A stretch of 50,012 nucleotides of DNA from an uncultured Atopobiaceae bacterium. Lineage in GTDB: Bacteria > Actinomycetota > Coriobacteriia > Coriobacteriales > Atopobiaceae. The number at the start of each line of letters is the position of its first letter. Within the stretch, counting starts at the first letter, position 1. The translations under genes were made by a program, and so were the position numbers. Below are positions 1,458 through 47,566 of this stretch, in pieces. Under the pieces are notes generated by a model. It was not told where the DNA came from. It did not search any database and saw only the letters and a program-made list of their open reading frames with translations. Location: assembly GCA_947625235.1 (NCBI GenBank), contig CANQNP010000005.1, forward strand, positions 1-50,012. The letters run 5' to 3'.

Positions 1458-3998
1458 ATGCACGAGGCCATCCACGCCATCTGGTATGTCGCCCTCGCGC
1501 TCGGGCTCGCCTCGCTCGGCTGCCTCGTGGCCGCCATCGTGAGCGAACGGTTCAACCGCTGGTTCAGCTGGTCGTCGAAGATGGCCGGCAAGCTCGCCAT
1601 CATCATCGTCGGCACGTTCTTCCTCGTCTTCCCCATCGCCGCCTTCGACATGGACGGCTCCGGCAACATCGTGTGGCAGACCCTCTCGGAATCAATTCCC
1701 GGCGCCATCTACGAGACGGCGCAGGTGCTCGTCTTGCAGGTGGGGCTCGACACGTGGTCGCTCGAGGTGTTCGGCGCCATCGGCGAGGGCATCCTCGGCC
1801 ACGTGTACTTCTGGCTCCTCGTCTTCTTCGCGATCGCCTGCCCCGTGGCGCTCGCCATGACGGCGATCGACGTCGTGCTGAACGGCCTCTCGGGCTTCGC
1901 CGTGCGCGCGAAGAGCCTGAAGAAGGCCGTGCGCCGCGCCCCGATCTACGTGTTCTACGGCCTCTCCGACAACACCGTCACGCTCGCGCTCGACCTCCTC
2001 GCGCACGTGGGCGCGCGCGAGACCCCGGCGCGCGAGCGCATGCCGCTCCTCGTGTTCACGAACGTCTCCGGCGAGAGCGCCTCCTCGGGCGAATCCTTTG
2101 AGGGCCAGGTGAGGGAGGCCGCGGCGGGCGTGGCCGACATCGTGGTGACTCCGATGGTCCTCGAAGACCTCCCGCGCCACATCGCCCCATGGGCGAGGAA
2201 GCGCTGCCAGACGCACTACCTCGTGATCTCCAACGACGAGGCCCTGAACGTGCGCACCACCATCCGCCTCACCGACGTCTTCGTCGAGGAGCTCCTCGCC
2301 CGCGAGCTCGATCGGCTGAACTGGAACGTGGCGAGGGTCGCCGAGCGTCCCGAGGTCTCCGACGAGACGCGTGCGCTCGCCGCGAACATCCACGTGTGGT
2401 GCACGCACGACAACCCCGACGACGACCTCATCTTCGATTCGCTTCCCTTCCGCGGCCCCTCCGAGGAGATCATGTCCGCGCTCCTGAGAGCGCGCGAGGG
2501 CCACGCGCACCTGAGCTCGCCCGCCGCCATCGCGCGGCGCGTGCTTCCGCTCGAGCAGCGCATCCGGAGCCTCTTCGAGGTGCGCCTCATCTTCGAGGCG
2601 CGCGAGATGGTGTGGGACGCCCTCGTGGAGCACCCGCTCACGGAGGTGCTCGACCCCATCGACCTCTCACGTGGCGCGCCGCCCGCCCAGCGCCTCTTCG
2701 TGCTCGTCGTCGGGCTCGGCGCGAGCGGCGTCGAGGCTGTGAAGGCGGCGTTTTGGTTCGGGCGCCTTCCCGGGGTGGAGCTCAACATCTGCGCGGTGGA
2801 TAGGGACGCCTCCGCGCGGCTCCTCGAGCTCGGCGCCGCGGCGCCCGGCCTCGTGGAGGAGCGCCACGCCACGCCCTCCGGATCTCGCGTGCCCACCGTC
2901 ACGTTGATCGAGGCCGATCCCGCCTCGCTCGACCTCGAGTGCCTCCTCAAAGGAGACGAGATGCGCGGACTCACGCTCGAGAACGGCGAGGTCCGCTCCC
3001 TTCCCTTCCGCCTCCCCGACGAGGCGCACGTCTACGCGATGGCCACGCTCGAAGACGATTCCGAGAACATGGCGATCGCCCTTCGCCTCCAGCGCGCCCT
3101 CGCCGATCGCGCGCTCGAGGGGCGCCTGCCCGCGGCGCTTCGCGAGCGGCCCGTCGTGTCCCTCGAGCTCGTGGACGAGGAGCTCTTCGATTCGGTGGCG
3201 CACCTCGCCGACGGCGAGGAGGTCTTCCCGCTCACGCCCTTCGGCGCCACCTACCGCACGTTCTCCTACGAATCGGTGCTCGCCGCGCCGTGGGAGCGCG
3301 CCGCGCTCAACCTCCAGGGCGCCCACGAGGCGGCCTTCGCGCTCGCACGCGGCGGTTCTGCCGAGGTGAGCGCGGCCGACGCCGTGGAGTCCTACAACTC
3401 GCTCGAGGTGCGCAAGCTCTCCGATCGCGCCGAGGTGCGCTTCGCGATCTATCGCCTCTGGTGCCTCGGGCTCGACCATGGAAGCGGCCTCGACGACGAC
3501 CTGCACGAGGAGTGGCTCGAGAAGCTCGACGCGGTGGGCGTGCTCGAGGCGGCGCACGAGGGAGATCCCGAGGCGCGCGCCTGCGTGAGCGGCACCCCGT
3601 TTGCCACCGAGGCCATGGACGCCGCCTCGCGCGAGGCGCGCGTGGCCCAGACGCTCGCGGAATCGAAGGTCGCGCGCGATCGCTGGCCCGTGCTCTCCGC
3701 CCTCGGCGACCTCGAGCACGCGCGCTGGTGCGCCTTCTTCCGCGCGCAGGGCTGGCGCACCATCGCGGACTTCGACGAGCTCGAGCGCACGATGGCGCTC
3801 GTCGGGCGCACGGACGAGCCCGCCTGGCCCTACCCACACCAGTCGACGCGCCTCCACGCGCACTACTACCTCGTGGACGATCCGATCGAGGCCGCAAGGC
3901 GCGGCGCCGAGTGCCGAGACGACCCCTGCTCCGACGATCGCCTCATCGTCCTCGAGACCATCCGCGCCCTCCGCGGCGACATCGTGCCCCTCGGCTAG
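1458..3998 (+). CDS. Membrane protein with two Rossmann-like (TrkA/RCK-type) domains and a RyR-like C-terminus
   Basis: 846 residues. Three hydrophobic segments (about 8-28, 44-63 and 115-141) are followed by a basic stretch and a cytoplasmic region. That region has a first nucleotide-binding-like fold starting near 162 (IYVFYGLSDNT) and a second near 412 with a proper glycine motif (VLVVGLGASGVEA). Near 751 comes LEHARWCAFFRAQGW, resembling the H-x-R-W...GW signature of bacterial RyR domains. TrkA-N/RCK folds bind NAD(H) or nucleotides and gate ion transporters, so a ligand-gated or nucleotide-sensing membrane complex is plausible. The function is unknown. The ATG at 1458 fits the start of TM1. 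The gene stands alone, divergent from dnaE and followed by REP-like palindromes. The domain calls are by eye. Confidence 0.8.
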   Translation: MHEAIHAIWYVALALGLASLGCLVAAIVSERFNRWFSWSSKMAGKLAIIIVGTFFLVFPIAAFDMDGSGNIVWQTLSESIPGAIYETAQVLVLQVGLDTWSLEVFGAIGEGILGHVYFWLLVFFAIACPVALAMTAIDVVLNGLSGFAVRAKSLKKAVRRAPIYVFYGLSDNTVTLALDLLAHVGARETPARERMPLLVFTNVSGESASSGESFEGQVREAAAGVADIVVTPMVLEDLPRHIAPWARKRCQTHYLVISNDEALNVRTTIRLTDVFVEELLARELDRLNWNVARVAERPEVSDETRALAANIHVWCTHDNPDDDLIFDSLPFRGPSEEIMSALLRAREGHAHLSSPAAIARRVLPLEQRIRSLFEVRLIFEAREMVWDALVEHPLTEVLDPIDLSRGAPPAQRLFVLVVGLGASGVEAVKAAFWFGRLPGVELNICAVDRDASARLLELGAAAPGLVEERHATPSGSRVPTVTLIEADPASLDLECLLKGDEMRGLTLENGEVRSLPFRLPDEAHVYAMATLEDDSENMAIALRLQRALADRALEGRLPAALRERPVVSLELVDEELFDSVAHLADGEEVFPLTPFGATYRTFSYESVLAAPWERAALNLQGAHEAAFALARGGSAEVSAADAVESYNSLEVRKLSDRAEVRFAIYRLWCLGLDHGSGLDDDLHEEWLEKLDAVGVLEAAHEGDPEARACVSGTPFATEAMDAASREARVAQTLAESKVARDRWPVLSALGDLEHARWCAFFRAQGWRTIADFDELERTMALVGRTDEPAWPYPHQSTRLHAHYYLVDDPIEAARRGAECRDDPCSDDRLIVLETIRALRGDIVPLG

Positions 3999-11040: not shown

Positions 11041-12533
11041 GCGAGCTCGCCTCCCTTCCGCGCACACGCCGGCGCCACGGCGCCCTCCGCCTCGAAGGCG
11101 CGCTCGATCGCGCGCGCGAAGGTGAGGAGCCGCCGATCCTTGAAGGCCGGGCCCTGGAGCTGCACCGCAAGCGGCATGCCGCTCTCGGGCCCCGGCCCCA
11201 CGGGCACGGAGATGGAGCCGTTGCCCGCGATGTTGCTCGAGATCGTGAACATGTCGGAGAGGTACATCTCCGTGGGGCTCGAGATCTCGCCGAACTTGAA
11301 CGCCGTGCGCGGCGCCGACGGGAAGAGCAGCACGTCCGCGCGCTCGAAGGCCGCCGCGTAGGAGCGCGTGATGAGCGTGCGCGCCTGCTGGGCCTTGTAG
11401 TAGTAGCGGTCGTAGACGCCGGAGGAGAGCAGGTACGCGCCGAGCATCTGGCGACGCTTGGCCTCGGCGCCGAAGCCCTTCGCGCGGCTCTTCTCGCTCT
11501 GCTCGGCGAGCGTGGCGCAGCCAGGCTCCTGATAGCCGTAGCGCACCCCGTCGAAGCGCGCGAGGTTCGAGAAGGCCTCGCAGGGACCGATCACGTAGTA
11601 CGCGGCGATGGAATCGTCGATGTGCGGGAGCTCCACCTCGATGGTCTGGGCGCCTTGGTCCTCGAGCGCCTTCGCCGCGGCCCGCACCGCGCCGCGCACC
11701 TCGCCCGAGATGCCCTCGGCTTCACAGAGCGCGGGCACGAGGCCCACCCTCAGGCCCTCGACGCCGTCCTCGAGGTGCTCGAGGAAGTCGACCGGGCACT
11801 CCTGGCTCGTGGAATCCATGGGGTCGGCCCCCGGGCCCACGAGCGCGTTCATGGCCATCGCCACGTCCTCCACGCGACGCCCGAAGGGCCCCACCTGGTC
11901 GAGCGAGGAGCCGAACGCGACGATGCCGTAGCGGCTCACGGCGCCGTACGTGGGCTTCAGCCCCACGACCCCGCAAAACGCCGCGGGCTGGCGGATGGAG
12001 CCGCCGGTGTCGGAGCCGAGCGAGAGCGTGACCTCGCCCGACGCGACGCTCGCCGCAGATCCTCCCGAGGAACCGCCGGGCACGCGCGCCGTATCCCACG
12101 GGTTCGCCGTCTTGCCGAAGTAGCTCGTCTCCGTGGAGGAGCCGAAGGCGAACTCGTCCATGTTCGCCTTGCCCATGGGCAGGCATCCGGCGTCGACCAT
12201 GCGCTGGACGCATGTGGCCGTGTAGGGCGATTCGTAGTCCTCGAGCATCCTCGAGCCGCAGGTCGTGCGGCTCCCGATGAGGTTCATGTTGTCCTTCACG
12301 GAGAGCGGCACGCCCGCGAGCGGCGGCAGCTTCTCGCCCCTCGCGCGCATCTCGTCGAGCTCGCGCGCCCGCTTGAGCGCGAGCTCCTCCGTCACCTGCA
12401 GGAGCGCGTGGATCTCGCCGTCGCGCGCGGCGATGGCGTCGAGCGAGGCGCGCGCCACCTCCTCCGCGGAGAACTCCCCCGCGGCCACGCCCCGCGCGAT
12501 CTCGGCCGCGCTCAGCTCGTCGAAGCAGCTCAT
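11037..12533 (-). CDS. gatA: Aspartyl/glutamyl-tRNA(Asn/Gln) amidotransferase subunit A
   Basis: 498 residues, amidase-signature family. It hydrolyses glutamine and channels ammonia to GatB. The Lys-Ser-Ser catalytic triad is visible: Lys80 in LSVKDN, Ser155 in PGGSSGGSA and Ser179 in SDTGGSIR. Start and stop both overlap neighbouring genes by 4 bases (gatC before, gatB after), as in a tightly coupled gatCAB operon. Length and motifs are normal. Confidence 0.97.
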   Translation of the reverse strand: MSCFDELSAAEIARGVAAGEFSAEEVARASLDAIAARDGEIHALLQVTEELALKRARELDEMRARGEKLPPLAGVPLSVKDNMNLIGSRTTCGSRMLEDYESPYTATCVQRMVDAGCLPMGKANMDEFAFGSSTETSYFGKTANPWDTARVPGGSSGGSAASVASGEVTLSLGSDTGGSIRQPAAFCGVVGLKPTYGAVSRYGIVAFGSSLDQVGPFGRRVEDVAMAMNALVGPGADPMDSTSQECPVDFLEHLEDGVEGLRVGLVPALCEAEGISGEVRGAVRAAAKALEDQGAQTIEVELPHIDDSIAAYYVIGPCEAFSNLARFDGVRYGYQEPGCATLAEQSEKSRAKGFGAEAKRRQMLGAYLLSSGVYDRYYYKAQQARTLITRSYAAAFERADVLLFPSAPRTAFKFGEISSPTEMYLSDMFTISSNIAGNGSISVPVGPGPESGMPLAVQLQGPAFKDRRLLTFARAIERAFEAEGAVAPACARKGGELA

Positions 12534-12893: not shown

Positions 12894-12970
12894 GTGACAG
12901 CTCGACGCTCAGGAGACGCTGACGTTTTTCGGACTCCCTCTCTCCACCATTGTCGAGGCAAGGACTTTCG

Positions 12971-13171
12971 GGGTCGGGGACGCACATAGTCTCCGGAGCC
13001 CTGCGGGAGCAGCGGTTGGGAGGTGTTTATCCGAGGCCCCCTTAGGACTGGTCCGCCGGAGCCAAAGTCCGTATGCCAGCGTGAGATGTGCACCCTCGGA
13101 TAGGCACCGGGAAGAGCCGTAGATCGTCCGAGCGGGAGCCGGGCTCCGGGGACTATGTGCGTCCCCGACCC
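12971..13171 (+). ncRNA. Unrecognised structured RNA-like element, copy 1
   Basis: Outer arms 12971-13001 and 13141-13171 pair at 30 of 31 positions plus one G-U on the plus strand. An inner stem pairs 13022-13036 with 13094-13108 (13 Watson-Crick, two G-U on the plus strand). Between them lies the core TGGTCCGCCGG..CAAAG.CCGTATGCCA, shared with copy 2 at 47311-47501. All three imperfect pairs are wobble pairs only if the plus strand is the RNA, so the plus strand is the likelier sense strand. It lies between msrAB and gatC, antisense to both. By eye it is not tmRNA, SRP, RNase P, 6S or a T-box. Confidence 0.65.
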
Positions 13172-47256: not shown

Positions 47257-47310
47257 CCTCCCCCTCGACATGTGGACGAATCGTGAAGCACGAGAGGATC
47301 CTCCCCAGGG

Positions 47311-47501
47311 CCGGGTGCCTATGGTCTCTGGCTCCCTGTGGGAGCCGCAAGGAGAAGGCCCTTTTTCTCGGACCTCAGGAGTGGTCCGCCGGCATCAAAG
47401 CCCGTATGCCAATGTGAGGTGTGTCACCCGAGAAAAAGGGCCGGTGAAAGCCGTTTGCCCGTGCGAGCGGGAGCCGGGAGCCAGAGACCATAGGCACCCG
47501 G
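47311..47501 (+). ncRNA. Unrecognised structured RNA-like element, copy 2
   Basis: Outer arms 47311-47336 and 47476-47501 pair perfectly (26 of 26); inner arms 47357-47371 and 47428-47442 pair perfectly (15 of 15). The loop core matches copy 1 (12971-13171) at 40 of 47 positions, but the inner stem differs at eight pairs, six of them changed on both sides with pairing kept. Lies between the rplL terminator and the rpoB promoter, 55 bases upstream of the latter. Strand assigned from copy 1. Confidence 0.65.
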
Positions 47502-47566
47502 ACCCCGCAAGTCGTTGCCAAAGCAGCCAAAGAGCGCGGCTCTTGAATCGCCGTGGTGAGCGAGGG

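Follow-up and report, generated by a model that had tools for sequence, protein, structure and literature searches.

The locus at positions 12971-13171 (plus strand) of the window, a stretch of 50,012 nucleotides from an uncultured Atopobiaceae bacterium, raises the question of whether its long paired stems are kept at the level of RNA or at the level of DNA. A functional RNA is normally proved by compensatory changes in its stems. A sequence-only reading of the window had noticed such changes between this locus and a second one, and had proposed an undescribed RNA family. The two matching structured loci are real, and the anatomy was recovered at 12971-13171 (copy 1) and at about 47308-47504 (copy 2), each with two outer arms around a core and all features on the plus strand. 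In copy 1, the left outer arm (12971..13001, GGGTCGGGGACGCACATAGTCTCCGGAGCCC) is identical at 30 of 31 positions to the reverse complement of the right outer arm (13141..13171), and the remaining position is a G-U pair. The conserved core (12992..13148; covariance model R1, 155.9 bits, E 2.5e-31), a span that here takes in the innermost 8-10 bp of the arms, contains an inner stem whose 5′ strand (13022..13036) forms 15 pairs with the 3′ strand (13094..13108), two of them G-U. The imperfect pairs of copy 1 are three G-U pairs on the plus strand, as had been described. Enclosed by the inner stem is a conserved internal domain with small hairpins (13037..13093, TGGTCCGCCGG...CCGTATGCCA..GTGAG), with columns that are invariant or nearly invariant over 38 copies. 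In copy 2, the left outer arm (47308..47336, GGGCCGGGTGCCTATGGTCTCTGGCTCCC) is complementary to the right outer arm (47476..47504) at 28 of 29 positions, the single mismatch lying at the outer end. Its core (47327..47483; R1, 187.8 bits, E 2.5e-38) carries an inner stem of 15 Watson-Crick pairs between 47357..47371 and 47428..47442. Comparison of the two copies gave the same picture as before: eight pairs of the inner stem differ, six on both sides and two on one side, with all positions paired, and the outer stem differs in sequence and pairs within each copy. The common core is present as well, at a likeness slightly lower than the 40 of 47 positions first given (38 of 47 ungapped, 44 of 58 gapped). 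Copy 1 lies between genes that we take, from their reading frames, to be a peptide-methionine sulfoxide reductase gene (msr) and gatC, copy 2 between genes that are presumably rplL and rpoB. At both sites, the flanking genes are encoded on the strand opposite to the plus strand of the element. Elsewhere in the window, ARAGORN called a tRNA-SeC at 11921-12013 (plus strand), which is probably a false positive because it overlaps the gatA reading frame of the opposite strand.

To describe the element as a two-copy structure proved wrong: this genome contains 12 copies of what is an intergenic repeat, and sister species add another 30. A degenerate core pattern detected the 12 copies. Covariance modelling, which the sequence-only reading had put forward, was applied to 11 of them, and the resulting model recovers the same 12 and also detects the copies in the sister species. 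Four of the five other genomes of the genus carry the element according to this model, with 21, 4, 3 and 2 copies; the genome with 21 copies is G005, of which about 1.55 Mb served for comparison. With the same model, no copy was found in G001 or in the other 54 sampled genomes of the family and order. Within the family, 140 genomes gave no other positive genus, and when a core-only model was run over the class (398 genomes from 153 genera), the element was found in one genus only. Public matches come from uncultured Atopobiaceae of the rabbit gut. The statement that no known family is recognisable holds up for both copies: none of 4227 Rfam families reached the gathering threshold in the window, and the best E value for both copies was 0.56, which reflects sub-threshold chance matches. 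In the literature on Coriobacteriia, we found nothing relevant on a named family of such repeats. The element is a new genus-specific interspersed repeat family of Atopobiaceae. Phage or plasmid cargo was considered as a separate candidate and rejected, as searches of phages and of plasmids gave no match and the exact core pattern is absent from IMG/VR.

An alignment of 38 full copies shows two inverted arms of about 28 bp and variable sequence around a conserved core of about 140 bp, giving about 200 bp in total. The core holds the 15-bp inner stem and the small hairpins, and its conserved segments over the 38 copies are CTGYGGRAGC, TGGTCCGCCGG, CCGTA.GCC, GAGGTGTG and GCGGGA.CCGGG. Arm sequences diverge among copies, and a single dominant arm variant is seen only in G005; most arms show a recognisable consensus across loci. 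Further copies with sequence-identical stems, which had been named as an observation that would speak against an RNA family, do occur in part, as many G005 copies have one common arm sequence. A unit of about 61 bp is often found upstream of the element, at times in tandem. The upstream tail of copy 1 (12901..12970, plus strand, GACGCTGACGTTTTTCGGACTCCC...GCAAGGACTTTCGGG), which a comparison of flanks showed to be common to other copies, is part of this unit, which is present in tandem at some loci. In G005, the right arm is tandemly repeated together with its tail, and in a pattern scan of this genome, solo arms were not detected outside the copies of the element with their tandem tails.

Intergenic contexts were convergent in 9, tandem in 19 and divergent in 2 cases (n=30), so that divergent regions are under-used (2/30, P = 0.02-0.06), and many copies lie 50 bp or less from a stop codon. 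In tandem contexts, no preferred orientation to the neighbouring genes was observed (10 vs 9), and a replication-strand bias was not found (9-11/18). Several other arrangements were observed near copies of the element. Two copies in opposite orientation (L005 and L012, G000:C102, about 3299-3690) lie about 80 bp apart between genes, and the orthologous G005 site is empty. On the G005 contig C5 (about 101,000-111,000), the two flanks of copy L074 from G004 are separated by about 8.6 kb and face opposite directions. This arrangement, with the G005 copies L055 and L064 in the interval, points to a rearrangement between copies of the element. Moreover, the element is often adjoined by another dispersed repeat, which is palindromic and about 100-110 bp long. 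In many cases this repeat begins with TYGACGCTGCGGC at a stop codon, and it contains a central hairpin (for example ACGTAGCG-AAGTA-CGCTACGT) whose stem varies with the pairing kept. Sites of this repeat include L176:700-850, L170:190-460, a position upstream of the element at L003 and other G005 intergenic sites, e.g. C14:6560-6659.

The covariation that had been noticed between two copies extends to the whole family. In the alignment, 97.1% of the cells are paired, and changes on both sides are seen in 72 cells, compared to 13.7 ± 3.5 after shuffling, while slid controls were paired to at most 56%. Part of this covariation, and much of the helix 3 signal, comes from one subfamily split (L001, L003, L005 and L079 against the rest). 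One explanation for such figures is that the copies form an undescribed family of small or cis-acting RNAs, with selection for RNA pairing maintaining the inner and the outer stem alike. The strong covariation over the whole structure agrees with this explanation, as do the conserved unpaired segments of the core, the lack of an Rfam match and the fold of copy 1, which at -127.4 kcal/mol is far more stable than dinucleotide shuffles (-86.7 ± 4.9 kcal/mol, z = -8.2). On the other hand, neither an intrinsic terminator nor a sigma-70-type promoter match was found at copy 1, and the absence of such a promoter match together with the balanced orientation in tandem contexts is unfavourable to a small RNA or cis-acting RNA.

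The imperfect pairs allow RNA and DNA to be told apart. If pairing in an RNA is what preserves a stem, most of its imperfect pairs are expected to be G-U when read on the transcribed strand, rather than A-C, which corresponds to a G-U pair of the other strand, or other mismatches. In the outer arms, 969 of 1026 pairs (27 positions in 38 copies) are Watson-Crick, and the mispairs comprise 12 G-U, 13 A-C and 32 others. Over 35 copies, the numbers are 5 G-U, 8 A-C and 23 others, and counted as distinct mispair classes, with L072 and the G002 copies left out, 3 G-U, 6 A-C and 18 others. Double changes in the outer stem are almost free of G-U intermediates. In the core, i.e. the inner stem and the small hairpins, the distinct classes are 10 G-U, 4 A-C and 2 others (G002 copies left out). 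Core and arms thus differ in G-U against other distinct classes (10 vs 6 and 3 vs 24; Fisher p = 0.0012, in a test on classes that are not fully independent), and the core excess taken alone is small (10 G-U vs 4 A-C). As a control, 38 tRNAs of the same genome gave 56 G-U and 0 A-C pairs, a count that is biased by ARAGORN's own scoring. Because no G-U excess is present in the outer arms, the covariation of the outer stem by itself is not proof of an RNA, and the proposed RNA family loses much of its appeal for this part of the structure. For the core, the tolerance of G-U pairs on the plus strand is in line with that proposal, and the core therefore looks like a plus-strand RNA or a strand-specific single-stranded DNA structure. 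Judged from these sequence patterns, its probable role is that of a folded RNA or of single-stranded DNA with a fixed strand. That the core alone might be a functional RNA is suggested by its G-U pattern and by the fact that it is conserved throughout the genus, the diverged G002 copies included; we regard this as a nearly balanced question, with the odds slightly against. The earlier claim of selection at the RNA level is supported in part, by the covariation and by the plus-strand G-U preference of the core, but not by the outer stem, which lacks the plus-strand signature.

Orthologous loci provide a second view of the arms. Same-orientation orthologue pairs were compared between G000, G003 and G005, with one genome per species. 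In these pairs, the two arms of a copy match at 24-27 of 27 positions (14 in L072, due to an arm deletion), whereas an arm and its counterpart in another species mostly agree at 12-23 positions only. Over all comparisons, the values are mostly 23-27 of 27 within copies and 12-25 of 27 between species, with L072 and L082 (22/27) as within-copy exceptions. At one locus shared by two species (L070/L080), the arms are unrelated in sequence and each pair is almost perfectly paired. At two further loci (L057/L011 and L053/L078), the flanks are colinear and the core is inverted between the arms. Complete exchange of the arms between orthologues and inversion of the core in place are both difficult to combine with an RNA family whose outer stem is under selection. 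The same holds for orthologous sites that are empty or retain one arm. We therefore consider it unlikely that an RNA family accounts for both stems. A switch of the inverton type, where inversion of the core between the arms by a site-specific recombinase alters transcription of the neighbouring gene, would explain the differing core orientation between species at two common loci. However, the arms lack the conservation expected of a recombinase site, no promoter-like site is seen at copy 1, and the inversions were observed at two loci and between species only, with orientation retained at most common loci. The signs of an inverton stop at the inversion itself, and we give this explanation hardly any credence.

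At several orthologous sites, a lone arm is found: in G004 (weakly also in G003) at the L003 locus, in G003 at the L001 locus and in G002 at the L053 locus. At others the element is missing, so that presence and absence are polymorphic between species. Such lone arm-like palindromes at core-free sites would be expected if a short palindrome already present at the target receives the core, or is inversely duplicated by it, the arms being host target sequence; the locus-specific arms of L070/L080 and the occurrence of both orientations at one locus fit as well. This explanation has to face the recognisable arm consensus across most loci, and lone arms can equally be deletion remnants. At the L001 locus, G003 has an arm alone and the distant species G002 has a full copy with core (L082), whose strong divergence argues for old residence there. 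Overall, we judge an origin of the arms from target palindromes very unlikely. It seems about as unlikely that the core is a genus-specific RNA- or single-stranded-DNA-based mobile unit which, each time it inserts, forms new arms through fold-back copying of target sequence. If true, fold-back copying would give an inverted instead of a direct target duplication and would explain how two species can have wholly different, near-perfectly paired arms at one locus. To our knowledge, no such mode of insertion has been described.

The missing G-U signature of the outer stem, the divergence of arms between orthologues and the flips of the core are marks of homogenisation at the DNA level. They undo the argument that the ends of a mobile element would be conserved between copies and that the variable stems must for this reason belong to an RNA. 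The explanation that we find somewhat better than evenly supported by these comparisons is a genus-restricted, dispersed, REPIN/BIME-like repeat with arms that are matched mainly at the DNA level and a core that is RNA-like. We infer that the arms are copied as DNA. One arm would serve as template for the other during replication, by template switching at inverted repeats, and the arms would stay complementary; alternatively, an extruded hairpin might be corrected by mismatch repair with the same outcome. Arm templating would also flip the core and yield double changes without G-U steps, and the inner stem could draw the arms together across the spacer of about 140 bp. Template switching has been reported to homogenise the arms of inverted repeats and to invert spacers (PMC8604942), and it has been proposed to create and maintain perfect hairpins, with multi-base compensatory changes in one step (PMC8794818). 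It would most simply account for the data, as one known process covering arm matching and core inversion together.

Some observations do not sit easily with DNA-level homogenisation of an RNA-like repeat. Published template-switch events mostly involve short spacers (PMC8604942), and here the spacer is about 140 bp; L072 retains an uncorrected deletion in one arm; the G-U excess of the core is small on its own; and no linked mobilising enzyme was found, Y1_Tnp and reverse transcriptase being absent from the genome with 21 copies. Mismatch repair of hairpins or ectopic conversion would leave traces similar to those of template switching, and ectopic gene conversion between copies could produce species-specific copies at common loci. 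The likeliest biology would be that of a non-autonomous repeat, selfish or tolerated, that is spread and homogenised by recombination or by mobilisation in trans. It may settle just behind stop codons and sit in transcripts as a stable 3′ structure.

Mobilisation in trans is best known from REPINs, which are REP doublets that form hairpins of roughly 100 bases, with nearly invariant arms and a spacer that varies with compensation (Bertels and Rainey 2011, PMC3116915). A true REPIN, whose hairpin arms would be the substrate of a mobilising RAYT (a Y1 tyrosine transposase), would share with the element the inverted palindromic arms, the hairpin, the intergenic location, the lone-arm remnants and the tandem clusters described there (PMC3116915). 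A search for Y1_Tnp (PF01797) was positive in G000 and G004 only, where a RAYT-like Y1 transposase gene of 258 aa is located at L195:1465-2241 and L194:1099-1875, respectively. However, Y1_Tnp was not found in G005 with its 21 copies, nor in G003 and G002, the contigs with the Y1 gene carry no copy of the element, and the gene is flanked by another, GACGGTTCTTTTGTCTTG-like repeat (flanks of L195 and L194). In addition, conserved and variable parts are exchanged relative to a REPIN, and we regard a true REPIN as improbable. Since the arms are not conserved and no Y1 gene is found in the 21-copy genome, the element is REPIN/BIME-like and not a proven REPIN. Palindromes of the GACGGTTCTTTTGTCTTG type are also among the longest inverted repeats of G005, though Y1_Tnp was not found there. 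Linkage to a RAYT is unsupported, as the distribution of Y1_Tnp does not follow the copies, and linkage to a reverse transcriptase of retron or group II-like type was rejected because RVT_1 was found only in G000 and G003 and not in G005.

Our data describe one element with two strongly covarying stems and unlike mispair signatures, RNA-like in the inner stem and like a DNA inverted repeat in the outer stem. It is a natural case for separating RNA-level from DNA-level covariation, and it suggests a simple control for RNA discovery pipelines, in which G-U is compared with A-C on a given strand and orthologous loci are checked for spacer inversion.

MITEs are miniature inverted-repeat transposable elements with conserved terminal repeats that are related to a transposon, and with a target-site duplication. 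The element is likewise short and multi-copy, has inverted-repeat flanks and shows presence/absence polymorphism between species, but its terminal repeats are not conserved between copies and no related transposon was found. A MITE was rejected on account of the unconserved arms and because no target-site duplication was evident at the junction of the L071 locus compared with G004, the only junction clean enough. A MITE with TYGACGCTGCG ends was also considered; the 28 matches include a single facing pair, 3.6 kb apart, and do not form a unit. Structured RNA families of Rfam share with the core the conserved loops, the covarying stem and the tolerance of G-U on one strand, whereas the element has no significant match among the 4227 families and its outer stem is without the mispair signature of an RNA. 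With REPINs and BIMEs, it has in common the dispersed intergenic location, the inverted arms that form a long hairpin with the spacer, lone arms, tandem clusters with flanks and compensatory changes. It differs from REPINs in its variable arms around a conserved spacer of about 140 bp, in its length of about 200 bp instead of roughly 100 and in that the richest genome is without Y1. Inverted repeats homogenised by template switching resemble the element in their copied, identical arms, in the inverted spacer and in multi-base compensation in one step. Whereas those cases mainly have short spacers, the element has a structured spacer of about 140 bp, and the process would recur across a whole repeat family.
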